From Glandiceps talaboti (taxonomy: Eukaryota > Hemichordata > Enteropneusta > Spengelidae), in the NCBI RefSeq assembly GCF_964340395.1, contig NC_135550.1, positions 11,694,408 through 11,758,407 of the forward strand: 64,000 nt of DNA, in the 5' to 3' direction. Positions 9,062 to 48,653 of the stretch are shown here, in pieces (position 1 is the first letter of the stretch; every line of letters begins with the position of its first letter). Position numbers and translations under genes: made by a program. The notes under the pieces are model-generated. The model saw only the letters and a list, made by a program, of their open reading frames with translations, did no database searches and was not told where the DNA came from.

Positions 9062-9760
9062 ATCTATAGATTATCCATTCCGTTGAAACATATCAATAGA
9101 AGCCGTTGATCTATCATTTCGTTGAAACATATCAATAGAAGCCGTTGATCTATAATTCTGTTGAAACGTATCAATAGAAGCCGTTGATATATCATTCTTT
9201 TGAAACATATCAATAGAAGCCATTGATCTCTCATTCCGTTGAAACGTATCAATAGAAGCCGTTGATCTATCATTCCGTTGAAACGTATCAATAGAAGCCG
9301 TTGATCTATCATTTCGTTGAAACGTATCAATAGAAGCCGTTGATCTATCATTCCGTTGAAACATATCAATAGAAGCCGTTGATCTATTATTCTTTTGAAA
9401 CGTATCAATAGAAGCCATTGATCTCTCATTCCGTTGAAACGTATCAATAGAAGCCGTTGATCTATCATTCCGTTGAAACGTATCAATAGAAGCCGTTGAG
9501 CTATCATTTCGTTGAAACGTATCAATAGAAGCCGTTGATCTATCATTTCATTGAAACGTATCAATAGAAGCTGTTGATCTATCATTTCGTTGAAATGTAT
9601 CAATAGAAGCCGTTGATCTATCATTCCGTTGAAACGTATCAATAGAAGCCGTTGATCTATTATTCTTTTGAAACGTATCAATAGAAGCTGTTGATCTCTC
9701 ATTTCGTTGAAACATATCAATAGAAGCCGTTAATCTATCATTCTGTTGAAATGTATTGAT
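9062..9760. repeat. 39-bp minisatellite, about 18 copies
   Basis: A 39-bp unit carrying GTATCAATAGAAGCCGTTGA is repeated without length change. Since 39 is a multiple of three, two minus-strand frames stay open for 79 to 218 codons (13-residue periods such as RNDRSTASIDTFQ). Copies differ by scattered substitutions, many of them C/T at CG sites. I see no start context, splice sites or domain, so I annotate it as a minisatellite and not a gene. Confidence 0.95.
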
Positions 9761-10626: not shown

Positions 10627-11410
10627 GGTGAACATTTCTGGCGGGGATCACAAATAGTTCATTCGAACTAGTCTGAATGTGACCCTCAGACACAATGCGA
10701 AAAATACTTTTAAAGGTGAACGTCTGTGAAAGATGGTCGAACGGTATAAGAAGTATAACAGCTGTATATGCCGATGGGTAGATTAATTAACAGTAAATGA
10801 TATCTACATAACATAACAGTGGAATAGCACTGAAAAGAGAAGTTTAGCTGGTAAGTAGCCAGTTCTTCAAGTGATACTTAAATTCATGGCGTTTATTGAG
10901 ATTCTTGATAAAGTCTGGTATTGAGTTCCAGTGTTTGGTTGCAGCGTACTTGAAGCTATGATGGTTCAAAGAAAGATTAAATTTTGGAGTATAAAAATTG
11001 TCACTTGTTGCCTGTCGTGTTGAGTAACTATGAGGTAAAATGTCGAGGTAATTATCAACGCTGTGCGCAAAGCGACTACTCTTTAAATCAAAAATAAACA
11101 TACAGGTACTAAATTTGCTCTGTTTATGAATATCTAAAATATTAAGTTTACGAAAAATAGGAGCAGTGTGAGCACGAAAGTCTGCGAAAGTAATAAGGCG
11201 AACTATTTGCTTCTGTAACTTCAAGATAGGATTTAACAAGCTCATATAGGTATTGCCCCAAATTTCAATACAATACGATATGTGTGGTAAGATCATGGAG
11301 TTGTACAGTAGGATAAGTGTTGATTGGGGAACGATATGACGGAGTTTTGAAATAATCCCTACAATTGGTGCAATTGAATTCACTATCAGCTTGGAACTAA
11401 GATCATTGCT
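10455..11410 (-). mobile_element. 5'-truncated non-LTR retrotransposon (CR1/L2-like) 3' end
   Basis: The minus strand encodes about 188 residues typical of the C-terminal end of a LINE reverse transcriptase: an LYNSMILPHISYCIEIWG stretch, then an FRAHTAPIFRKLNIL block, then WNSIP near the end, and a stop at 10844. The frame stays open through this part. Downstream is a roughly 390-nt 3' UTR, ending in an ATT-rich tandem tail near 10460-10480, as in CR1/L2-type LINEs. The catalytic part of the reverse transcriptase and the endonuclease are missing. The 5' break falls at a (CA)n run at about 11411. Confidence 0.85.
10587..10621. repeat. (CA)n microsatellite
   Basis: A CA dinucleotide run within the 3' UTR of the LINE fragment. 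Confidence 0.95.
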
Positions 11411-11433
11411 AAACACACACACACACACACACA
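11411..11433. repeat. (CA)n microsatellite at the LINE breakpoint
   Basis: A short CA run exactly where similarity to LINE protein stops. Confidence 0.9.
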
Positions 11434-14400
11434 ATGACAATAAAAGTTTAATTCATTTTTCAAGCTAATATGAATTATGGCTTTAGAATCCGAGTTATAT
11501 GAGATGAATTAAATTCCCCTCAGAACTTCACAGATAAAATACCTGACCTATGAAATTACTGCAGCAATTATTATTAGTTTAATTTCTAGTCAATTAACTT
11601 AACAGTGTTTGACATTTTGATTGCCTTTGGAATAAGGTGTTTGGTCTCTCCAGGCAACGATATATAATTCAAAAGACACAATTTATCACAAACGAATAGG
11701 TGTTTTTAAAATCTAAGTGCTATTGAGAGAAAACTGAAGGCTTTAATGAATATTGTTCACGTCTTTTTTTTTTTTTTTGGAAAAAATACAATTATTCAAA
11801 GTATTATAGTGAGCATGCAATCACCAAAAGTGACAATAATAATTTGCAGGTTAATTTTGCCATGAACTGGAACAAGGAAACTTAATATAAGTTGAACCTC
11901 AATTTAGAGCATGTTTTTATTATTAAGGCATATAGCTTTCCTTGAAAAGTTTACACACAGAAAAATGGAGAACGCTAGAAAATAAATGACAATAAAAATG
12001 TCTAGGATAAGAAAAAAGGGTATACCTTTCTATAAGATACATCAATGAAAAACAAAAAAGACAACAACTGCAGTTGGAGATCAAAAGACTATTTATCAAA
12101 GTGTTTCTGGAATTTTCCATGATGTAGTTCTCTTTATTATATGCCTCATATATTCAGACACTGCACGTTACATTGTTTTCTATGGAGAAAATTATTATGT
12201 TGTAGCAGCTATATTACAGTACTGACCAAATCAAACCAGAACTGTTTTTGATAGATAATACAAACACACACATGCAGTTCCATTTACATCAAAATCAAAC
12301 TTTATTACTGGAAAAGGACTGCTTGTGGATGGAAATTCTCTCGTAAACGTTCAGAATATTGAATTTGAATACAGCAAATATATCGCAACAGTATCAATGT
12401 AACTTTGTCCTATTGTCGTAATACACGTTTAATATCAAAAGTGAGGTATATTTCACAAACGATATTCCAGGACATATTAACACTGGCAACCGATAGTTAC
12501 ATGTGAAACAAAAATATTTGACACATACATAATAATAGTGAAACATCATTCAGAATCGTTGTCATTGCTGGAATATCAGACTCACTTTCAGAAATCCGAC
12601 ATACTTCTGTTTGAGTTTTCAGTGCGTCAGTACGGTTAATGCTGGGAACATGTAGCGCATGCTTTTGGAACAGCTAGCAGCTAACTTTTCAAAGTGCTCC
12701 CATGGTGAATAGCTGATTTAGAAATACTAGATGAACTATCGCCTTTGATATTGGGGAATATCACTGACATTTTTTTGACATGTCAGATGTGGAATATGAT
12801 GAACTCAACACTCTGAGGGTTTGCCCTACACCAGATCTACAAGGTCATCGTGTATGATGTCGACTGCATCATGATTGACACACAAATTCTTTTCTTCAAA
12901 ATTATGCAAATGAGTTGACCGTGTAAGAGCATATTAATCCATTGTTTTTTTCTATGTAGCAATGAGTGTCAAATTAAGCAGGACATTCAGGGCGCAAAGT
13001 CAAGTTTTATTTGTTTTCAAATTTTTTGACATGAAATTTCTTGTAAGAAAATAATATCTATGGAGGCTATAAATAATATTAAATTATTATAGACTTGATA
13101 TTGCGTTATATGACTTCAGAGCAAGGATACATATTCAGCACTCCATTATGTGTCGTGCTAGTACTATCCTTGCCCTTGAGCACATAACCCAATATCAAGG
13201 CAATGATATATAATTTTATATTTTTCTTTCACCACCACAATCAAGAAGTTATTCAAGGAACTGGTTCTGCTTTTTTTAAACTTTACAATGTAAAGATGAA
13301 GACTACTTCACATGTAAACATGTAGATGTAACAAATTAGTTCACTTGGTAAAAAGATATAATAGGAGATGAAATTCACTTATTTTCATTTTGTGACTTTA
13401 ATAGAGTAATTTAATACCTGGATATTCAACTCATTTCAAGACAACTACATTTGCAGACAAAAAAAATATACATTAAGCAGCTACCTGTGTTTGTCCAATG
13501 GACACACTATTATGCATTAAAATATACAGCATGTCTCTGTTTGAGATCCAAACATGCAGAAACCAATAAATAACACACTGTATATTCTACACTGGGATAC
13601 CAAAATATTTGCAATTATTTCTTTGCTACAATTAGGCTGATTGAAATAAATCATTTAAAACATATTACAACCACGTGGGGGGGGGGGCTATGCCAATTAT
13701 TCAACACATATATGTGTCGCCCTTTGGGGTGCATTTTCTAGCACTTTGATCTAAAATGGGGTCTGTTTTTCTGAGCTGAGGAGTTTAAAACGGGGTCCAG
13801 TTTGCATTATTTTCTATTTTGCTTGGTTTAAAATGTGGTCCACTGTCCTTTACGAAATCATAACTGCCATTAACATGATTAATTGCCACCAAAATGTTGC
13901 CTCATAAGGAAAATATATTTTATGTATAAACTTTCAACTTTTAAAAACCTCAGTGCAATGGTCTAGAATGGAGTATTGAGTTTTGGTCAAAGTGGGTCTA
14001 AAATGGGGCCTTAGGTTTGCACCACTGGCCACACACCCCCTACCAGAGCTGGCCACTGGTGCCGCCACCGGGAACACAACTAGATGCAGACACACAGGTG
14101 GCAATGTTTTGATGTCTGCATTTTATGTGTGCATGGCATGTGTGTCATATGTTACTTGTTAGTTCATTTCATGCAGATAAAATGTCAGCAAGAAACTCTA
14201 CTCAGATCATGAAGTGTAGCATATGTATAGTTTCTTATTGGTTTCAGTGTGTTTGTATCAAACAGTATGAGTGAACAATAACCTGCAGTGCACTGTAAGC
14301 TGATCAAAGTACCGGTCATTCAATTTAATGCACTTTTTAAGTACACAATCTGAATTTACTATGAATGTAATTCAGTAACTTCCTTTGACGTTCACTATAT

Positions 14401-32643: not shown

Positions 32644-35600
32644 AAACAACTTAAAGTCAAAAACCGCTGGACTGATTGGGACGATATTTACTGTTGTTCT
32701 GATGAGCGAGTGTTTTACATCAAAAGGACGGGAGTTTCAGCTCAAATGCCATTCCCCTATGATGCCATAATTTATCTAAACCTAAAATTAGACTACAATT
32801 TCCCATAGCAACATTCCACCCTCAAATGAATATGGTAATCATGTTTACATCATACAGCTCAACCCTCTGAGTTGATTCTAATCATGTGGTGATGCTACTG
32901 ATGTCATCTCACGGCAGGAAAAATTAAAAACCCAGTAAGAATTTGTGTTTGCTTTCTGGCTGAACATTCATTAAAATAAATGGGTGCTCGCAAAAAAGGA
33001 AGGGCATGGTATGTAATGTATTTGGTAGAGATGTACAGAAAAGTATATACATGATAAATCATTCTGACATGTATGTGATCAGACTCGTAAACATATGGCT
33101 AGATGAAATAGACCTGGTATGATTAATTGTTGTTTTCTGAAAATATATGGCTAGATGGAACAGACCTGGTATGATTAATTGTTGTTTACGAAAATATATG
33201 GCTAGATGGAACAGACCTTGTATGATTAATTGTTGTTTACGAAAATATATGGCTAGATGGAACAGACCTTGTATGATTAATTGTTGTTTACGAAAATATA
33301 TGGCTAGATGAAATAGACCTGGTATGATTAATTGTTGTTTACGAAAATATATGGCTAGATGGAACAGACCTTGTATGGTTAATTGTTGTTTACGAAAATA
33401 TATGGCTAGAAGGAACAGACCTTGTATGATTAATTGTTGTTTACGAAAATATTGGCTAGAAGGAACAGACCTTGTATGATTAATTGTTGTTTACGAAAAT
33501 ATATGGCTAGAAGGAACAGACCTTGTATGATTAATTGTTGTTTACGAAAATATATGGCTAGATGGAACAGACCTTGTATGATTAATTGTTGTTTACGAAA
33601 ATATATGGCTAGAAGGAACAGACCTTGTATGATTAATTGTTGTTTACGAAAATATTGGCTAGATGGAACAGACCTTCTATGATTAATGGTGTCAGGCATG
33701 TATGTGTATATATATGTCAAACTGGAATAGTATTGTCAATAAAAGTTAACACTTAAATTTGGCAAATGTTTGTCTTTTTCTTTTTAAAAATGATTGCAAA
33801 ATTGATAATGACTATGATTGCAATACATTCAAAAACCATTATTTTTGAACACTTAATCAATCTAAAGACCAACATAAAGAACTCATACATTTGGCAGCAA
33901 CAGAATGCAGTCTCCATACAATGAGTGACACTGAAGTAAAGCACTTTCTCTAAGTGCTACACTCGTTTATAGCATTCGTATCAAGTGTAAAAGTATACTG
34001 TTTCGATTGGTTTATTTCCAAGCCTAGCATGTGGCCCTTCTAATGTGGTCAATCAGCAAATGAAACAGTATACTTCTACGTTGATATGGATGCTATAAAC
34101 GATTGTGGTACATACAGAAAACGTTTTACTTTGGTGTTATGGGTTGTAGTTGATATGGATGCTATAAATGATTGTGGTACATACAGAAAACGTTTTACTT
34201 CGGTGTTATGGGTTGTATTATTATCCCTGGTGTCATTTTGCGGTATCCCACAGACTTGGCTATCTGGCTAAAAATGTTGTTCACAGGCCAGTATCTCAAG
34301 TCAGATTGCTGATAGTCTCTAGACTGATTTTGTAAAAAAGTAGAATTTAAAGATTTATCTGATTTGCATAGAAGCTGTGTCTTGCTCGTTAACAAACCGA
34401 TTTCACGAAGTGTCACCATTTTGTAGATGGACTCGGTGAATGTTACTAAGCTTCATCACAAAACAAATTTTGTACATGTGCATACCACGAAGCATGTCAA
34501 TATACATTGTTGCATGAATATCATTCATTGAGACAGTCCAGTTTTCACCTGCGTTCATGTAAATATATACCATACATGCACAAATGCATATATACATGTA
34601 TTTGCATTTAGTTGATTTTACATGTCACACTGGTAGAACAGTGGGTTCAATAAACATGTTTATACATACATACATACATACATACATACATACATACATT
34701 ATACATACATACATACATACATACATACATACATACATACATACATACATACATACATACATGTATACATGTATACACAAACATATACATCCAAACATTT
34801 ACTCATTATAAAATCATCTTTCTTTTTACTAAGGTTGGGGAATATACTGGTGAGAGAAATAAGGAAATCCAGTAAATGATGGAAGGCTTGCTTTCCCATG
34901 CAATGTATCTTTCTTTTCTTTTTTTCTTTTTTTTTCTTTTTTTTTTTTTGGGGGGGGGGGAACCCAAGTAAAGTGACTGAGAAACTCAGGTAGCTTTTAT
35001 TGCCTTGCCATCCTTAGCAAAAACACTGGTAGGGAACCCTGGTAAAGTGACTGGGGCACTCAGAACTTGCATAATTACCTCCTTGAGTCCTTGGGAAAAA
35101 GGGCCATTATATCGTGTTTATAACAAGTCATGACATAGCTATACACACCAATGGTACACTTACAAGGTGCCAAACATAATAGCATAATGGGTACAAATAA
35201 ACAATACTAGATACCAACCCCATCCTCATGTACTAATTAAAGGCATCTGCCAAAAAACAAACTGAAATTCCTCTTCTCTATTTTAGAAATGATGCACATT
35301 TCACAAACTCAAAATAACATTTTCCTGGTCTTTACACAGCATCAATGCTGTTAGGGCAGTGTAAGATCAATTCTCCTTTGGGTGATCATTAAAACTGGAT
35401 ACAATGAATTAAATGGTTTCTTCTGAGAGACACACACATAAGTATATGTAAGTGCGCACACACGCATGCATGCATGTACACATACAGATGGTGTCATCTG
35501 AAACACACACACGTACATAAGCAGGCAAGCATGCACACACACATACATACATACATACATACATACATACATACATACATACATACATACATACATACAG

Positions 35601-41600: not shown

Positions 41601-42310
41601 CTTATATGATGTTTCACAGTCAGTATACTTCTTGTGGGATTCACGTCGAGTCAGAGCCTGGCCTGGTCCGGCCGTGGACTTAGATAATTTTGATGTCTGC
41701 CGTAAAATGAATGCGCCAAAGCGACGCAAGGTTGGAAAATTATTGCTTCATTTGTAATTTTAGGGGGCCAATGTCGCAAGGTCGTGGCCTCGGCAGAACT
41801 GGCCTAAGACGCCATGGGGAACCTTACAATTTTGCTGTGCTCAGGGGTCGGTCGGAAATAAAAAAACTTTTTTTTTTCTAATGTCGGAGCTGCAAATTAG
41901 GGTCGGTCGGGAGATGAGAAACAGAAAAATAAAAAGGGCCGCCCTAATGATGTATGTATGGACAGACAACGTTACCTTTGAAAATAGTGTAGTAAGAACA
42001 TACCAAGGAGGAGTCGGTTCGTTGTGGACTGTACATTATTACTTGTTGAGTACATTATGAGTGTTACAGGTACGGCGAAAGACGGTAATTCTTGGAGAAA
42101 CCATGCCACCTTCGGATGAATCCCGAAGCCCCATGATGAACTTCCATACCTCCCATACGGACTTTTCAGGAATTGTAATAACACACAGACAATGATCGCT
42201 GTCCCAGCCATAATCAAAGCTAAATAGTACAACAGATCGATTTCTGCCTGTGAACTGTTGGGAAATGTTCCCATGATTTCAAACACTGTTGACAGCCAAG
42301 CGGACGACAT
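31823..42310 (-). CDS. SRD5A1: Steroid 5-alpha-reductase, complete, 5 exons
   Basis: Exons at 42310-41976, 38532-38366, 37749-37648, 35827-35677 and 31889-31823 join in frame into 273 residues. That is close to the 254-259 aa of vertebrate SRD5A1/2, with the same five-exon layout. It is a membrane enzyme of the endoplasmic reticulum that reduces the delta-4 bond of 3-oxosteroids with NADPH. Visible hallmarks are the FLQELPSFAVP segment (its Glu corresponds to the steroid-contacting Glu57 of SRD5A2), LIRGG, NIHSDHVLRNLRKPGETGYK (NADPH-binding loop) and the C-terminal DDYPKNRKAFIPFLL. The protein is strongly hydrophobic with several membrane helices. The chosen start has A at -3. Exon 3 resembles SRD5A1 and the C-terminus SRD5A2, so it probably represents the pre-duplication type. 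A DNA transposon lies 153 bp upstream of the ATG. Confidence 0.95.
32115..32690 (-). repeat. Tandem array built from an interspersed-repeat tail
   Basis: Four to five units of about 120-160 bp each contain GATAAGGTTCAGTAGTGCTA, a (TGTC)n run, a (GT)n run and an AACTTAAAGTCAAAAACC phrase. In inverse orientation the same order of motifs ends the repeats at 50400-51330 and 52220-52995. Unit length varies with the dinucleotide tract. The array lies in SRD5A intron 4. Confidence 0.85.
33086..33690. repeat. 51-bp minisatellite, about 12 copies
   Basis: The unit contains ATATGGCTAGATGGAACAGA and ATGATTAATTGTTGTTTACG. Copies are very similar, with a few 2-bp gaps (ATATAT/ATAT) and substitutions. It is located in SRD5A intron 4. 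ORFs across it (17-residue period) are by-products of a unit divisible by three. Confidence 0.95.
34081..34218. repeat. Tandem duplication, 2 x 69 bp
   Basis: Two near-identical copies beginning TTGATATGGATGCTATAAA, differing at two or three positions. Confidence 0.9.
34658..34790. repeat. (CATA)n microsatellite
   Basis: Long CATA run with one short interruption, in SRD5A intron 4. Confidence 0.97.
35500..35620. repeat. (CA)n/(CATA)n microsatellite
   Basis: CATA units flanked by CA runs, about 60 bp from the exon 4 donor. Confidence 0.95.
35677..35827 (-). CDS. SRD5A1: SRD5A exon 4
   Basis: 151 nt between CCTAG and GTAAGA. It encodes GLFEYVSGANFFGESLEWFG and ends RAYHHHR across the splice, as in SRD5A2. 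Confidence 0.96.
36277..36866. mobile_element. MITE-like element, CCGGAGTTTTCCGAAAAC inverted ends
   Basis: The left end has CCGGAGTTTTCCGAAAAC and the right end has its exact inverse. About 590 bp, no coding potential, in SRD5A intron 3. No target-site duplication is clear. Confidence 0.75.
37648..37749 (-). CDS. SRD5A1: SRD5A exon 3
   Basis: 102 nt between TTGTTAG and GTTTGTG. It encodes GMTINIHSDHVLRNLRKPGE, the conserved cofactor-binding stretch of the family. Confidence 0.96.
37803..38121. mobile_element. MITE-like element with about 55-bp inverted ends
   Basis: The left end has GGTAGTGGCAGTCC and GCATGCTTGTTAG-like sequence. The right end carries the inverse (GGACTGCCACCACC, CTAACAAGCATGCG). 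About 320 bp in SRD5A intron 2, 54 bp from exon 3. Confidence 0.75.
38366..38532 (-). CDS. SRD5A1: SRD5A exon 2
   Basis: 167 nt between TTACAG and GTAAGC. It encodes TFIFPFLIRGGKKTP and CLYNGYMQGR, matching the exon 2 region of vertebrate SRD5A proteins. Confidence 0.95.
39052..39454. mobile_element. MITE-like element, GGGGAGAACCATTTGATTTC inverted ends
   Basis: About 30-bp inverted ends (left begins GGGGAGAACCATTTGATTTC, right ends with its inverse followed by CCCCT). The interior holds phrases of the type ACAAATTTTTTTT. About 400 bp, non-coding, in SRD5A intron 1. Confidence 0.8.
40378..40415 (+). other. G-rich run with G-quadruplex potential
   Basis: Several GGGT repeats are followed by a run of twelve or so G on the plus strand, satisfying the usual four-G-tract pattern. 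It lies in SRD5A intron 1. Confidence 0.6.
40541..40576. repeat. Perfect 12-bp hairpin
   Basis: ATCTCAGACCAC and GTGGTCTGAGAT separated by 12 nt. Confidence 0.85.
41976..42310 (-). CDS. SRD5A1: SRD5A exon 1
   Basis: 335 nt from the ATG (MSSAWLSTVF) to a GTAACG donor, phase 2. It carries the N-terminal membrane helices and the FLQELPSF substrate-pocket segment. A more upstream in-frame ATG (42337) would add nine residues. Confidence 0.93.
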
Positions 42311-42464
42311 GATTGAGCATACACATGCATACGTCACGTCTGACCCATGTTTGTGTGCGGTTCAAAGGTCAAAGGTCTACAATCGTGGGCGTTGCGTTGG
42401 GTGCATGATGGGTTGAGCGATGTGTGAGGGCGCCCCGTCATGGCATACTTTAAAATGTATATTA

Positions 42465-42660
42465 CTGCTTAAATTACCGAAGTGTTCAAAGTGAAAAATA
42501 AAAGATGCCGCCGCCAGCGCGTATGCCCACTACTTATCAGGACATGTCACTGAACTTCTCAAATGAAAACATCCACCCGCCAAGCCAAAACATTGACGCG
42601 CGAAATAGAAAAGTTTGACGCGCGAAACAGAAAAGTTGAAGTCGGCATATCAAAAAGATA
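42465..42660 (+). repeat. Left terminal inverted repeat
   Basis: It pairs with about 48220-48417. The outer 60 bp are nearly identical, then there are scattered substitutions with few indels. It contains the ATGCCGCCGCCAGCGCG phrase seen in both ends and a tandem pair of 22-bp subterminal repeats. Confidence 0.92.
42595..42638 (+). promoter_or_regulatory. Subterminal 22-bp tandem repeats (left end)
   Basis: Two adjacent copies of GACGCGCGAAACAGAAAAGT plus two bases, 130 bp from the left tip (one copy has two changes). By analogy with IR/DR-type Tc1/mariner ends these are candidate transposase-binding sites. That function is inferred. Confidence 0.6.
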
Positions 42661-42733
42661 AAACCACGCCCAGTGTCTAAAGCTAAAATGATCAATCTAC
42701 TGTCATCATCTGAGTCAGGTTGAGGTTCTAAAC

Positions 42734-45178
42734 ATGGCGGCGATACGTAGGGGTTACCAGGCTAGAACGCCAACAAGGGAAAAACAATTGGAAACGTGGC
42801 TTGAAAACATCGATTCGGAACTTCTGAATTATGTCGAGGCCCTAAAAAAGGCTGGATACACGAGTTTGAGAGCTATTGCACGATTAACGTGTGAAGACAT
42901 CCAAGACTTTCTACCTGAAATACCCCCGGGTCATAAACGATTACTTTTACATGAGGCATCCAAGTTGCGTACCCCCATAAAGCAGGATGCAATCAAGTCA
43001 TCAAGTGAGTCTGACAATGGAGCAGTAAGTAACTCGAAGGTGAAATCTTCTTATAATGTTGAGCAACTGCATGTTGGAACTAATCCCCACTTTGTCAATC
43101 AACCCACTACGACCATGACAACAATAAATGTTTCCGCCAAGGGGAAGCGGTCACGTTCGCCAACGAACGAAGATGCTACTAGTATGTCACATACAGGTAA
43201 ACAACAACGCAGTGATTTCGGGGGTTCATCGCAAAAATCCACCCAGTCACACACAAGTGATACACAAAAATACGTCAAATCACAGAGTGATACGTACATG
43301 ACCCCAGTTGAGAAAATGAAATTTGACATGGATATGGAAATTGGAAATATTTCCGAAAATTTGCAAAGACTAGAAAAAGACCTATGTTGTATGCAGGAAT
43401 CCTTTCGGCCGACTACAACAACCACGAAACACGGCCCTTCGTGCAGTAATTGTCACCAAAAATTAGGCCATAATGTGTTGAACTGTAAATTTCCGAAGTG
43501 TGAAAGTGCGTCATTCTGCAAAGACATCGGTCGAAGTGAACACAGAAAAGAAAAAAGAAAGATGATAAATCTTGGGAATGAAATCAAAGCAACTAAGGAG
43601 AAAATTAAAGAAAAAAAGCTGCAATTAGTGCAATTTTGTAAATCTATAACAGCAAGTCGTAGCACCTACGCTTCTAAAATTAGAGGCAAATTAATCAACA
43701 GCAATACGGACAAATATCTGTCAGTTGACGGCACAGTAAATTGGCTGGAAGTCAATACTGATGCACGAAAACTGGAGACTGTTCTGGGTGGTAATACGCC
43801 AGTAGAAACCTCAGATATCCAAGAGCTTATCGCAAATTTTGATGAAAAGTCTACTCCCAAAAATATTAAAACAAGGAAAAGCGAAAGTAAAGTAATTGAT
43901 TTGTGGAAAATGAAAGGAGTGAATTGGCCTGGGAAAAAGACAGCTTTAGATACCCGTGAGCAAGATGAAAAAACTCTGAACCCGGAAGCTCCAAAAAGCG
44001 ATGTTGTTTTTGTGACAAAACAGCAAGATGAACTACTTCTGAAACTTGGTATAGAAGAGAGTATAAAGACGTATGAAGAAGAACGTGAAAGTAGAGCGAC
44101 CGATCGTATTGACTCGGGGACAGATCGTGATAACCTTTTAGACGACGTTTTCGTTGCATTGTCAAATATGCAACAACAAATATCCATCTTAACTGAACAA
44201 CAACGGAAATCTGACAGCAGCGTCGATCAAGAAAAAACAAACCCGTCTTGGAAAAATGTGACCTTGGAACAGAGGGCTGCATGTCAACAACAAAGTAAGC
44301 TTATGTCTAAGACTGTTCATTCTGATGATTTGGCATTTGGTACGGATACGTTTGAGGATGGAAACGAAAATGACAATACCCATAGACCACGTAGAAGTCT
44401 GTTCACTATGGAGTCCATATTGTCACAGTCAACGCCAAAACAACATGGCCACAACAAAACCTTGGACCACAATCGAGTAAAAGTCAAAATGGATAAGATG
44501 TGTGAACAGCTACCAATTGCACCCTACTCACTTCCTATGCGTATGCCTAACATATACAGCCAAAACAATAGTCAGCAATATGGTGGCGTTACCCAGGACC
44601 AAATACCAGGGAACAGGCAAATTGAAATAGTGAATACACAACTAGATTATTTGCCATCACATCCTAGGATGTATCAAGATACATTTACGCAAGGCCATAC
44701 TGAATTTTTTCCAACAGGTACTTGGCCAGTACACTTGCAGCCTGTCACTGATTGCCATCCTACCCTGCCAACTACTAGTCTATGCACACCTGTAGGATCT
44801 GCCACCCTGCCAGCTACTAGTCTATGCACACCTGTAGGATCTGCCACCCTGCCAGCTACTAGTCTATGCACACCTGTAGGATCTACCACCCTGCCAGCTA
44901 CTAGTCTATGTACCGCACCTGTAGGATCTACTACCCTGCCAGCTACTAGTCTATGTACCGCACCTGTAGGATCTACTACCCTGCCAGCTACTAGTCTATG
45001 CACACCTGTAGGATCTACAAATATGATAAACCATGTAACTGTCAATTCACAATGTCTATCTGAAAACACTCAGTCAGTCGAAACATTACCCTTACTACAG
45101 ACACAAAATGTAGAAGATGGAAATACAACAAATCTGTTAGCATTATATGAATCAGCTCGTCTACTTGGGGATTTGTAA
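42734..45178 (+). CDS. Transposon-borne SAM-domain / zinc-module protein, 814 aa
   Basis: A single intronless frame starting in a strong context (AAACATGGCG) 270 bp inside the left end. Residues about 20-80 form a SAM-like domain (WLENIDSELLNYVEALKKAG, then a DIQDFLPEIPPGHKRLLLHE helix), a fold used for self- or hetero-association. Residues 237-270 form a Cys/His module, C-x2-C-x5-H-x4-C-x4-C-x5-C-x7-H, which begins like a zinc knuckle. It is followed by a Lys/Glu-rich probable coiled coil (about 273-300). Residues about 677-763 hold six 14-15-residue repeats (LPATSLCTPVGSTT). The rest is polar and probably disordered. No nuclease or transposase motif is seen. I do not recognise a named family. 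Position inside the inverted repeats, convergent with the transposase, suggests a cofactor or DNA/chromatin-binding partner of transposition. Domestication as a host gene is less likely but possible. Confidence 0.9.
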   Translation: MAAIRRGYQARTPTREKQLETWLENIDSELLNYVEALKKAGYTSLRAIARLTCEDIQDFLPEIPPGHKRLLLHEASKLRTPIKQDAIKSSSESDNGAVSNSKVKSSYNVEQLHVGTNPHFVNQPTTTMTTINVSAKGKRSRSPTNEDATSMSHTGKQQRSDFGGSSQKSTQSHTSDTQKYVKSQSDTYMTPVEKMKFDMDMEIGNISENLQRLEKDLCCMQESFRPTTTTTKHGPSCSNCHQKLGHNVLNCKFPKCESASFCKDIGRSEHRKEKRKMINLGNEIKATKEKIKEKKLQLVQFCKSITASRSTYASKIRGKLINSNTDKYLSVDGTVNWLEVNTDARKLETVLGGNTPVETSDIQELIANFDEKSTPKNIKTRKSESKVIDLWKMKGVNWPGKKTALDTREQDEKTLNPEAPKSDVVFVTKQQDELLLKLGIEESIKTYEEERESRATDRIDSGTDRDNLLDDVFVALSNMQQQISILTEQQRKSDSSVDQEKTNPSWKNVTLEQRAACQQQSKLMSKTVHSDDLAFGTDTFEDGNENDNTHRPRRSLFTMESILSQSTPKQHGHNKTLDHNRVKVKMDKMCEQLPIAPYSLPMRMPNIYSQNNSQQYGGVTQDQIPGNRQIEIVNTQLDYLPSHPRMYQDTFTQGHTEFFPTGTWPVHLQPVTDCHPTLPTTSLCTPVGSATLPATSLCTPVGSATLPATSLCTPVGSTTLPATSLCTAPVGSTTLPATSLCTAPVGSTTLPATSLCTPVGSTNMINHVTVNSQCLSENTQSVETLPLLQTQNVEDGNTTNLLALYESARLLGDL
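44761..45022 (+). repeat. Coding minisatellite in the SAM-domain gene
   Basis: Six copies of a 42-45 bp unit containing CTGCCAGCTACTAGTCTATG. The 3-bp difference (an extra Ala codon in two copies) preserves the frame. Confidence 0.95.
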
Positions 45179-45179
45179 A

Positions 45180-47044
45180 CATTTGAATGTGAAAGGGTGA
45201 CTTCTACTAAGATACTAAAGTGATATCTGGAATGAAGGATAACTTGATTTATTTGAAGTGAGAATTAGATTGTCAGTTGAATTAATAGTATTTCTATAAC
45301 ACAAAACACTTTGCATTCATGTCATTACCAAAGACTATAGACCAAATTATACATAAACTTGCTAGTATGTGTCAAATAACAATATTACCAAGGGAACGTC
45401 AAACCCTGTAAGATGACCCATGTGTTAGGGTAAAGTGAAATTTGGACTGGAGACTCAGTTGTCGACATGTCTCATGTTGTGTTTGTATACATGTCACATA
45501 TATGCCACATACTTTATTACTATTCAGTGACATTGATAATACACTGTAATTCACACAAATTATTTGCTACAATGTGGGGTTTTTTTTCAACTGGTAATTA
45601 TTTTGTTGCCAATAATCAATAAAAGTGTTAAAATTAAAACTAGTTATCTTTGTTGAACCATGTTTCCATACAAAGCTTAGTGGTGAACACAAACCATTTA
45701 AAATAATCAAAATGGAAAATTATCAGTAAGTTATTGCATTCATCCACACAATCTTTCTGAAAACCCAAGAAATAATTGATAAGTGTACTCCTTATGCCTA
45801 GATATCACATATATGAAAATTATCAAATTTGGGATTGAATGATTTTAAGATCATAAAAATTAACATCATTTTATTTTGTAAAGTCAATTATTCAGACACT
45901 GTCCCTTATATCCATCATGTGATCAGAAGTGACTGATTTTACTGAAGTAAATGTAATCATGGCATACTTTGAGTTTCAAAAAATAGATTTGTTATAATAT
46001 TGACTGAATTTTATTGTGTTGTGTGATGGTTCTCAAAAGGCACATTTTCAAACATGAATCAGAAGTGCTTGTTTTTGATGTTCACATGTTAATGTTAATG
46101 TTCATTCTTATCAAAGAATTTCAAACTATATATATGTTCAGTTCACATTATGATAATCATGGTTTACACATTAAAATATTGCAGTCTACAATTTTATGTA
46201 TTTTTGAATTACAGTAAGTTTACATGAATACTCAGAATAGATCTCATAATGGTATAACATCTTGCATGTCAAATATGCCAGTTTGGTGAAATTTAATGCA
46301 TCAAGGTTTTGAACACATTCAATGTTTATATTTAATATGGTGATAATAAGGTCAAAGGTCGAACGTAGTGCTAACTCTAGTAATGACATCACTCATTCCG
46401 ATCGCTCGCGTACATGAAGCAGAATACCATACCATTCATCAAAATAAAATAACAGCCACTTCCAAATTTGACAGACAAATTTTGTTTATTGATAAGTGTT
46501 TCATGATCCAATATTTTGTAACCGTTCCAGTACAGTAATATTCATTGAATAGTGTTTGTACAACAACTGTGATGTACATTATAATGTTCAACAGCTTGAA
46601 GTTGTCACATTGTGTTGTGGACGGTGATGTTTTCTATTATTACAGTTATGACTGGATGGCACCAAGTTTGTACTGGATCTACCTTATACTGAAATGTAAC
46701 ACCACACGTCGAATGGTTTGTTTTTTCAGAAGTTGAAATAAATCTTATTACTTCATAAAAATTCAATTCATCTTTTAGAGTGCCATCGATGCATGTATTT
46801 TTACAACTGTAGTGTGTACGTGTGTACATGAAGGTATACTTCCATGGTGTGTGGGCCAAAGTCATGCATGCAAGAATCAATTACCGAAATCCGTACCAAC
46901 GAGGGCGAGTTAAAAATATTCAGGCCCATGTTTGTGCAAATGCTGTGCAAATGAACTAAAAAGTAAATCAAACGTAGCCCATGAAAAAGTGGCAATAAGA
47001 AAACCTGTATTGTAGAAATTTACACAAATAGTCTGTTCGCTTCA
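45180..47044. other. Convergent 3' region of the transposon
   Basis: AT-rich sequence between the two stop codons. Plus and minus ORFs of 60-90 codons around 46545-46880 overlap each other and have no recognisable motif. It probably serves as both 3' untranslated regions. A minus-strand AATAAA at about 46487-46492 could serve the transposase transcript. Confidence 0.5.
45618..45623 (+). promoter_or_regulatory. Probable polyadenylation signal of the SAM-domain gene
   Basis: AATAAA, 440 nt after the stop codon, with TG-rich sequence downstream. Confidence 0.45.
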
Positions 47045-48148
47045 TTATTCCGCTGGAAGGTAGTCTTGCAGATTAATATCTAAAAACCCAACACTACGAT
47101 AATAACCCAATACATCTGACGGTTTGATTTCTCGTAGAGCTTGGAGAACAGCAAGATGAAGGTCTGTTCTTGCTAAAGCGTTGTATTCTGGTCTTGAGAG
47201 TGTCTTCTTCAGTTTTCCGAAAACAAATTCGGCTGGGTTCAATTCAGGGGAGTAATACGGAGTGTATACTAAAAAAATGCCCATTGCATCAAGCCAAGCT
47301 CCCAAATATCGACCGCCTTCGTAATGATGAGTTGGGTGGTTGTCGACGACGATAAAATCACCATATTCTAATACTGGTCTATGGGTCATTGGTCTGACAT
47401 TCTCGCTAGCATCTTCAAAAAACTGGATGAACTGCACCGTATCAGTGTTGTGATGGATGACTTTCGCATAACTTAGACCCTCCAGACCAACCATTAAATG
47501 CAATGTTACAGCAGGTGATCGCATGTAACGTTGTATTTCCACTGCCCGTTCACCGCGTAAGGCATGACCATAGCGTGGATTTATGTCTTGACTCAATTTG
47601 ATGCCTGCTTCATCAAAGAACTGGATTTTGTTGGGGTCTTCTGCATGCAAGAAATTCACAAATTCATTGCAATATGCTATGTTTTCATCTGTGAATTTCT
47701 CGTATGCTACAGTTGTCAGTTTTTTGAAAGTCCATCTACCACCTGATAATCGAGTTCTCACCGCTCGTCCGAAAGTACTGATGGAAACATCTTCGGTAAC
47801 ATCACCATACTCCGCTATTTTTTCCTTCAGTGCTCGGTACGTCATGGAAGGCTGAGACCTTTTCAAAGTTTCTATTAGTTCAATATCACCATCTTTCAGC
47901 TTAGGATATGAACCCCTGTTGCCTTTCACTGGTTTGCATGATACAAATCGTTCCCATATTTTTCGAATACCACGGTCACTGAAACGGAACTTTTCTGCTA
48001 CCTCTCGGTAAAACGAAAAATCCCCGGTGACTGGATCACCACCGCGTAGTAGAATTTCCTGCACAATTAAATCCTGTAATTCTGTCGATGTTGTTGTCCC
48101 TCTCCTCAATCTCCGTCCATATGCGTTAATCATGTTATAACCAGCCAT
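47045..48148 (-). CDS. DD37E transposase (IS630/Tc1/mariner, DDE_3 type)
   Basis: The frame is open for 424 codons from 48319. I prefer the ATG at 48148 (AGCATGG, strong context), giving 367 aa, the usual size of Tc1/mariner transposases, because the extra 57 codons lie mostly inside the inverted repeat. Numbered from the preferred start, residues about 10-100 contain two helix-turn-helix units of the paired type (REVAEKFRFSDRGIRKIWER, then ISTFGRAVRTRL). The catalytic triad is visible: Asp179 in FFDEAG, Asp269 in VVDNHPTHH and Glu307 in YTPYYSPELNPAEFVFGKLK, with 37 residues between the last two. It would bind the inverted ends and cut and join at TA. No disabling change is seen. Confidence 0.95.
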   Translation of the reverse strand: MAGYNMINAYGRRLRRGTTTSTELQDLIVQEILLRGGDPVTGDFSFYREVAEKFRFSDRGIRKIWERFVSCKPVKGNRGSYPKLKDGDIELIETLKRSQPSMTYRALKEKIAEYGDVTEDVSISTFGRAVRTRLSGGRWTFKKLTTVAYEKFTDENIAYCNEFVNFLHAEDPNKIQFFDEAGIKLSQDINPRYGHALRGERAVEIQRYMRSPAVTLHLMVGLEGLSYAKVIHHNTDTVQFIQFFEDASENVRPMTHRPVLEYGDFIVVDNHPTHHYEGGRYLGAWLDAMGIFLVYTPYYSPELNPAEFVFGKLKKTLSRPEYNALARTDLHLAVLQALREIKPSDVLGYYRSVGFLDINLQDYLPAE

Positions 48149-48219
48149 GCTTAGACAGTCTCGTGCTGAAGTGTCATGAAATTCAAATTCAGAAAAGCAG
48201 GCGTTGACGCCGTTGTGTA

Positions 48220-48417
48220 TCTTTTTTGTTAGATAGCCGTGTCCAACTTTTCTGTTTCGCGCGTCCAACTTTTCTGTTTCGCGCGTCGATGTTTTGGCTA
48301 GGGGAGTTGATGTTTTCATTTGAAAAGTTGCCTGTCAGCTGCTGATAAGTATTGGTAGTACGCGCTGGCGGCGGCATCTTTTATTTTGCCCTTTGAACAC
48401 TTCGGTAATTTAAGCAG
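48220..48417 (-). repeat. Right terminal inverted repeat
   Basis: Inverse counterpart of the left end. It contains two exact 22-bp direct repeats and the probable promoter and 5' leader of the transposase gene. Confidence 0.92.
48244..48287 (-). promoter_or_regulatory. Subterminal 22-bp tandem repeats (right end)
   Basis: Two identical adjacent copies of the same 22-mer, at the same distance from the right tip as the pair in the left end. Candidate transposase-binding sites. Confidence 0.6.
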
Positions 48418-48533
48418 TATAACAATTATGATAAGATTAATGAAGAGGAAAAATATGCGGATTGAAAAAAATGTGGTTTAAAGACGAGATACTGTAAATG
48501 ATGAGATATTGTAATGAAAAACATAAAATGGAA

Positions 48534-48653
48534 ATGCCTACGGCACGTGGTATTCCCAGGCGGTCTCCCATCCAAGTACTAACCACGCCCGACGCAGCTT
48601 AACTTCGGTGATCGGACGAGAACCGGTGTTTTCTACGTAGTATGGCCGTAGAC
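48534..48653 (-). rRNA. 5S rRNA: 5S ribosomal RNA
   Basis: The minus strand reads GTCTACGGCCATACTACG, then CCGATCACCGAAGTTAAGC, CTTGGATGGGAGACCGCCTG and GGAATACCACGTGCCGTAGG, the full-length metazoan 5S sequence of about 120 nt. The 5' and 3' ends pair (helix I). Internal promoter boxes A (AGTTAAGC), IE and C (GGATGGGAGACC) are all present, and T runs follow the 3' end as a pol III terminator. It is a single copy here, not a tandem array, 115 bp beyond the right end of the transposon. A few departures from the usual animal consensus in loop A leave open that it is a dispersed, possibly inactive copy. Confidence 0.93.

Follow-up and report, generated by a model that had tools for sequence, protein, structure and literature searches.

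A mariner-like transposon lineage of Glandiceps talaboti with a conserved second gene, a possible transposition cofactor

IS630-Tc1-mariner (ITm) elements are the standard example of DNA transposons moved by a transposase alone, a property that has made them gene-delivery tools. They usually carry a single open reading frame (ORF), as stated in an excerpt of PMC8533490. An element in a 64-kb stretch of the Glandiceps talaboti genome (C2:11694408-11758407, hereafter the window; assembly GCF_964340395.1, 590 Mb in 47 contigs, designated here by C-numbers) raises the question of what a second gene is doing inside a transposon of this group. A first-pass annotation of the letters had described TA-flanked inverted ends enclosing an intact Tc1/mariner-type transposase gene and a convergent, intact 814-codon gene, and the ends and both genes were located as it had placed them. 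The interpretation that we prefer, with a probability of roughly 0.55, is that the element represents a two-gene ITm lineage whose accessory protein, as we infer, acts as a self-assembling, nucleic-acid-binding cofactor of transposition.

The element is 5,953 bp long (42465-48417), with a TA dinucleotide outside each end and inverted ends that are 87% identical over 182 bp without gaps (184 bp including the TA). The 18 terminal bases, allowing up to three mismatches, matched the window at the two ends only, with 0.05 matches expected. When the element was shuffled 300 times, no stop-free frame exceeded 193 codons, so the 814-codon accessory frame and the 424-codon transposase frame are not attributable to chance. 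The transposase matched the Pfam family DDE_3 (1.1e-18), which was also found in three related families of the genome, b, d, and e, and the second aspartate and the glutamate of the triad were separated by 37 residues (DD37E) in all four families tested. A paired-like N-terminus was indicated by a Pax match over the Pfam cut-off in the family d transposase (1.4e-5) and by a profile match of the transposase to Pax5 (2e-4), and HTH_32 was under its cut-off in the window transposase. The traits of an ITm element were thus present in the form of DDE_3, the D-D-E spacing, the TA duplication, and the paired-like N-terminus, and the trait that departed from the group was the usual single ORF. Within the transposase frame, translation probably starts at Met58 (position 48148), because the first ATG of the frame in the copy on C19 is at that position and other families start nearby.

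The genome was searched with each of the window proteins and with one accessory protein of family b; these searches give lower bounds. Full copies on C19 and C16 contained both genes and had a TA on each side and flanks unlike those of the window copy; a TA target-site duplication was accordingly present in three of the three full copies of the window family, each with different flanks. The C16 transposase gene has one stop. All five window-family copies with a transposase match of at least 700 bp (on C2, C19, C16, C12, and C17) held the accessory gene, contrary to the possibility that most copies lack it, which the first-pass annotation had raised. In addition, a copy on C6 has kept the accessory gene, with stops, and has no transposase match, and a transposase piece at C7:24108110 has no accessory match. 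Five further loci (C10:2156854, C22:14812784, C7:6486502, C11:19748078, and C4:27881638) contained a piece of the accessory gene's SAM domain and a piece of the transposase gene (nt 361-580) 0.6 to 0.9 kb apart, mostly with stops. These loci may be internally deleted derivatives of the two-gene element; inverted ends were not found at four such loci that were examined.

Across the genome, 35 of 61 accessory loci had a transposase match no more than 5 kb away, compared with 0.10 expected under uniform placement; the 61 include the short SAM-piece loci and leave out rows consisting mostly of a 42-bp array, repeats of a listed locus, and second frames or pieces of one. Moreover, elements in which one pair of ends encloses the two genes include the window copy and its counterparts on C19 and C16, members of families b, d (C5d), and e, and two more distant elements, C8j and C2k. 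These findings bear on the proposal that the two genes are chance neighbors, as two single-gene elements or as a domesticated pair. The remaining 26 of the 61 accessory loci, which have no transposase match within 5 kb, would fit it; the 35 loci near a transposase, the shared ends of the window copy and its relatives, and three separate sites with a TA at each border make it the least probable of the explanations considered here. For the window family, chance adjacency is ruled out by the three TA-flanked full copies.

The transposases of the pair-carrying families are 34 to 60% identical among themselves. Tail-to-tail pairs were found in family b (C7b, C11b, and C5b), family d (C5d, C5c, and C7g), and family e (C16e and C16f), and both convergent frames were open in the three copies of family b, in C5d, and in the two copies of family e. 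The C5c accessory gene lacks the end encoding PB1, the domain that several of these families carry at the accessory N-terminus, and the C7g accessory frame is broken. C7b, C5b, and C16f, which are intact in other respects, each lack the outermost 5 to 10 bases at one end, with the other end complete, and C5d has a TA at one side only. The genes of C8j and C2k are arranged head to head, and both are open in each element; C17l is a head-to-head pair with one stop per gene. The ends of C8j are repeat-rich, longer than 1 kb, and bordered by TA on both sides, and those of C2k are 103 bp long, 76% identical, and TA-flanked. A provisional absence of the accessory gene from C8j and C2k, based on the lack of one downstream, was discarded when the gene was found upstream, head to head. 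A remnant of the accessory C-terminus was found at C22h (C22:16948690). As a separate observation, a degraded repeat family on C20, C21, and C4 carries pieces of both genes in the same orientation (by coordinates only); seven of its accessory rows have one TGA and one TAG in common, which may point to introns or to a broken master copy.

The shared history of the two genes was examined with trees of the transposase and of the accessory core for seven families. Both trees separated the convergent families (window, b, d, and e) from the divergent ones (C8j, C2k, and C17l), with support of 96/94 for the transposase and 100/99 for the accessory core, and C8j and C2k paired together in both. Owing to a long branch in both trees, the exact place of the window family is unsure. 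Pairwise identities of the two proteins were correlated (Mantel r of 0.81), and 2 of 5,040 permutations, the true pairing included, gave a value as high. Co-inheritance of the transposase and the accessory gene has thus been shown, across deep divergence and a switch in gene orientation.

Comparison of the window copy with C19 indicated constraint on both genes, as the first-pass annotation had expected of the second. The transposase gene differed by 15 synonymous and 6 nonsynonymous changes, with a ratio of nonsynonymous to synonymous rates (dN/dS) of 0.11 (Fisher p of 1.9e-6), and the accessory gene by 48 and 30, with a dN/dS of 0.17 (Fisher p of 3.7e-14). By region of the accessory gene, synonymous and nonsynonymous changes numbered 13 and 2 in the SAM segment, 8 and 6 in the linker, 5 and 0 in the core, 12 and 7 in the repeat array, and 3 and 0 at the C-terminus. 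The comparison with C16 resembled that with C19, and the accessory gene is under purifying selection between the window copy and both of these copies.

The first-pass annotation had called the second gene a SAM-domain gene. The domain is present (SAM_2 in Pfam, 8.1e-5; residues 1 to 89 alone, 27.8 bits against a cut-off of 20.5; profile match of the region to the SAM chain of SHIP2-EphA2, 5e-5), but the conserved part of the protein is a core rich in cysteine and histidine (C/H), and several relatives carry PB1 in place of SAM. PB1 exceeded the Pfam cut-off in family b (3.3e-6), family d (5.4e-7), and C14m (3.2e-8) and was weak, under the cut-off, in family e (0.0095). Pfam found SAM in the window family but in no other family that was scanned; this segment, as distinct from the rest of the gene, was therefore probably gained in the window family. 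The same absence is what speaks for the proposal that the gene is a passenger, taken up from a host SAM gene in a single event. The rest of the protein, however, is common to families whose transposases are 34 to 40% identical to that of the window, its divergence is correlated with theirs, and the gene is constrained between copies, which leaves this proposal very improbable. For the gene as a whole, capture as a passenger was rejected on the shared core, the correlated divergence, and the constraint, in agreement with the recurrence of the accessory gene beside the transposase in distant families.

In four families, the N-terminus of SAM or PB1 type is followed by the motif C-x2-C-H-x4-H-x4-C-x4-C-x5-C-x(5-7)-H and then by LINS..KYL, and the eight C/H positions are invariant across the four families aligned. 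The motif of C8j and C2k has one more residue before the second histidine. The accessory proteins of families b, d, and e have tails that appear, by eye, rich in tyrosine, proline, and glutamine. No convincing Pfam family was found for the core; the hits, including EAD9 (2.3e-4) and TSGP1 (0.006), each occurred in one of four members. The best PDB match of the core, a weak one, was CDCA7, with E values of 0.014, 0.061, and 0.2 for three distinct sequences.

CDCA7 is a reader of hemimethylated DNA. Its match to the core (E of 0.014) and the CpG-rich ends of the element, with an observed/expected ratio of 1.39 compared with 0.51 for the window, are what favor the main rival to a cofactor, namely, an anti-silencing role in which the accessory product binds the ends of its own element and protects it from the host, like VANC of the Arabidopsis VANDAL elements. 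Second genes of this kind exist in other DNA transposons, according to excerpts of PMC5735166 and PMC10398659. The CDCA7 match, though, is not significant and is based on cysteine spacing, and the core has no good match to any Pfam zinc family; we regard the anti-silencing role as a serious but rather unlikely alternative. A further proposal is that the protein limits the element itself, by repressing either transposition or the transposase gene, and is retained for the reduced harm to the host. The family does seem to be low in copy number, with at least 18 end-like matches of >100 bp among 41 listed, both ends counted (40 of 65 candidates scored). Transposition repressors often derive from transposase fragments, and element-level selection for a large, separate repressor gene over such divergence is harder to explain, so that this proposal seems improbable.

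Several observations weigh against a cofactor kept throughout the lineage. Accessory matches lay within 5 kb of 35 of the 82 transposase loci, many of which are short pieces. Among the 29 loci at which 700 bp or more of the transposase gene matched, 20 had an accessory match within that distance and 9 did not: four with 29 to 30% identity (C15:23621198, C19:307931, C4:597057, and C2:7382362) and five others (C14:24064739, C18:9445435, C22:16948690, C4:835971, and C4:15788715). At C14:24064739 (37% identity), no accessory gene was found in about 3.5 kb downstream; C22:16948690 retains a 62-amino-acid accessory remnant. Conversely, the 26 lone accessory loci include 21 with under 600 bp matched and five with at least 600 bp, one of which (on C9) has transposase pieces about 10 kb away. 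Inverted ends were not found at C5c or C7g. As for the protein, Pfam did not detect PB1 in the divergent families C8j, C2k, and C17l; two of the eight C/H positions are mismatched in the broken C17l gene; and a single-sequence model of the window core, with two long helices flanking the C/H loop, had a mean predicted local distance difference test (pLDDT) score of 53. In the comparison with C19, accessory residues 371 to 655 showed 7 synonymous and 15 nonsynonymous changes, and constraint on them was not significant. Between close pairs, the corresponding counts for the accessory gene were 3/7 (C19/C16), 2/7 (C7b/C11b), 6/6 (C7b/C5b), 6/9 (C11b/C5b), and 1/0 (C16e/C16f), and those for the transposase gene were 1/2 (C7b/C11b), 4/2 (C7b/C5b), and 3/2 (C11b/C5b). 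Such very close pairs rest on few changes and say little; not all of them appear constrained. C5c and C5d differed by 27 synonymous and 70 nonsynonymous changes in the accessory gene, with nonhomologous N-termini, and by 0/0 in the transposase gene.

As a cofactor, the accessory protein could work as follows. Head-to-tail linkage of its copies, or contact with a partner, would be provided by the N-terminal SAM domain (by PB1 in several relatives); the helical stretches would pair; and zinc would be held by the C/H core, which would also attach to nucleic acid, probably at the repeats near the ends. The protein might thereby gather or bridge both ends for the transposase, or else control the transposase. 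ORF1/Myb in Harbinger and RAG2L with RAG1L would be models for such a function, not relatives. In the window family, both genes begin just inside the ends, and each end has two E2F-like sites; expression in S phase could thereby be favored. A more elaborate version is speculative and, in our view, doubtful: an assembly-dependent mariner-like class in which the accessory protein would polymerize through an exchangeable PB1/SAM module on the end repeats, the resulting filament or condensate would pair the ends and license the transposase, the CDCA7-like zinc motif would possibly read methylated DNA, and the E2F sites would tie the burst to S phase.

The features of the element are collected in Table 1. 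The GCGCGAAA/TTTCGCGC core within the end repeats, which corresponds to an E2F consensus, marks putative sites; exact matches number just four in the 64-kb window, two per element end, and all four are retained in the C19 and C16 copies. In families b, d, and e, the 620 bp preceding each gene contained no such core in the copies examined. The in-frame repeats of the accessory gene have counterparts in degraded elements at C6:17925787-17928315, C9:9222741-9225008, and C12:21626399-21627205, where the 42-bp array is much expanded.

Table 1. Positions of the element's features in the window (TIR, terminal inverted repeat)
Feature	Position	Strand	Remark
Left TA	42463..42464	.	Target-site duplication
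Left TIR	42465..42646	+	182 bp ungapped; begins CTGCTTAAATTACCG
Two 22-bp direct repeats in left TIR	42593..42636	+	Both contain GCGCGAAA, an E2F-like core
Accessory gene	42734..45178	+	814 codons, single open frame, convergent with transposase gene
SAM domain	42776..42973	+	Accessory residues 15-80
Conserved core of accessory protein	43301..43843	+	Residues 190-370; C/H motif between helical stretches (low-confidence model), then LINS..KYL
Putative zinc motif	43442..43543	+	C-x2-C-H-x4-H-x4-C-x4-C-x5-C-x7-H
42/45-bp tandem repeats	44762..45018	+	In frame within accessory gene
AATAAA	45618..45623	+	3' of accessory gene; possible polyadenylation signal
DD37E transposase	47045..48148	-	367 amino acids; frame with earlier ATG extends to 48319
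DDE_3 catalytic domain	47192..47626	-	Holds the D, D, E triad
Right TIR	48236..48417	-	
Two 22-bp direct repeats in right TIR	48246..48287	-	With TTTCGCGC
Right TA	48418..48419	.	Target-site duplication

Weaker inverted similarity runs inward to about 282 bp and covers both start codons; its score was equaled in 21 of 2,000 shuffles, so that it is modest and suggestive only. The distance from ATG to element end is 269 bp for both genes in the window copy, and this equality was considered as a conserved design. The idea was dropped because the C19 copy has distances of about 260 and 278 bp and other families have unequal ones that differ more. The first-pass annotation had also called the element apparently young, which was not borne out: the two ends of the window copy are 13% apart from each other, and the synonymous divergence (dS) from C19 and C16 is 0.06 to 0.09. 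End identity was rejected as a measure of insertion age, because the accessory-side end differs by only 2 to 4% from those of the C6, C19, and C16 copies and is thus closer across copies than the two ends of one copy are to each other.

Around the element, a full-length match to the 5S rRNA gene (48535-48653, minus strand, 114.3 bits) lies 116 bp from the right end, and no other Rfam match in the window exceeds the gathering score. An ORF at 41972-42337 (minus strand), some 130 bp from the left end, had no Pfam match and is presumably similar to the first exon of a steroid 5-alpha-reductase (SRD5A) gene; if so, the element may lie in its promoter. Elsewhere in the window, tandem arrays were found at 9076-9756 (17.5 copies of a 39-bp unit, with a 221-codon open frame) and at 33089-33687 (11.8 copies of a 51-bp unit), and a 202-codon ORF at 10844-11452 (minus strand), with no Pfam match, is assumed by us to resemble the C-terminal end of reverse transcriptases of long interspersed nuclear elements (LINEs).

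Taken together, the findings suggest a mariner-like branch that relies on a second protein, predicted to bind zinc and probably self-assembling. The retention of this protein through deep divergence suggests that some ITm elements depend on, or profit from, a partner. A simple test of the partner's action by adding one gene becomes possible, and the natural exchange of SAM for PB1 would allow polymer-forming domains to be tested as the active principle. In the listed titles and abstract openings of open-license papers, which for some searches cover part of the matches, no description of a two-gene element of this kind was found; no listed title concerned PB1-domain mariner elements, and the single SAM-domain match with transposon terms was unrelated. 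An earlier description as an unnamed two-protein "Mariner" entry in Repbase is possible.

Among known systems, the DD37E ITm families, as described in part of PMC10379824, resemble the window element in the triad, the TA duplication, the inverted ends, the transposase of about 360 amino acids, and the paired-like N-terminus; the difference is the second gene, which is part of the window element. Bacterial IS630 elements are similar in the transposase: all five transposases scanned, of which two are nearly the same, matched the NCBIfam IS630 model, the best at 4.2e-35 and that of the window at 93.3 bits against a cut-off of 100, and plasmid IS630s reached up to 31% identity to the transposase among the 20 listed of 659 records. 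In an 11-row tree with little inner resolution, however, the eight transposases of the genome formed one clade apart from three plasmid IS630s (100/100). In four plasmid IS630 stretches with 1.5-kb flanks, no annotated, named counterpart of the accessory gene was present (hypothetical proteins were not compared). IMG/VR scans yielded no relative of either window protein or of the transposase alignment, a scan of GTDB genomes no relative of the transposase, and phage records four weak transposase matches.

Transposons with a partner gene offer closer parallels in organization. In RAGL (RAG1L-RAG2L), a transposase gene and a convergent accessory gene lie within inverted ends, as a portion of PMC7204232 describes. 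RAGL nevertheless has its own transposase, a 5-bp duplication, and heptamer-like ends, whereas the window element has DDE_3, a 2-bp TA duplication, and a partner with SAM or PB1 and the C/H core, and no sequence link was seen; the lineage would be another case of a transposase plus partner for comparison with RAG1/RAG2. Movement of PIF/Harbinger elements needs two element-encoded proteins, ORF1/Myb and the transposase, according to an excerpt of PMC2836001. Their partner is Myb-like, whereas Pfam assigned DDE_3 to the transposases scanned here and SAM or PB1 to their partners, with no Harbinger or Myb match. The target site of PIF/Harbinger differs as well. Kolobok shows accessory genes (KolX, nuclease, and helicase) that vary by lineage within one superfamily (PMC9587614, in part) but has a TTAA target and another transposase. 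For the accessory core itself, the nearest likeness is the zinc-finger domain of CDCA7, which shares the C-x2-C-x10-C-x4-C spacing and gave the weak profile match, but CDCA7 has a further cysteine where the core has a histidine, and the core has no CDCA7 match in Pfam.

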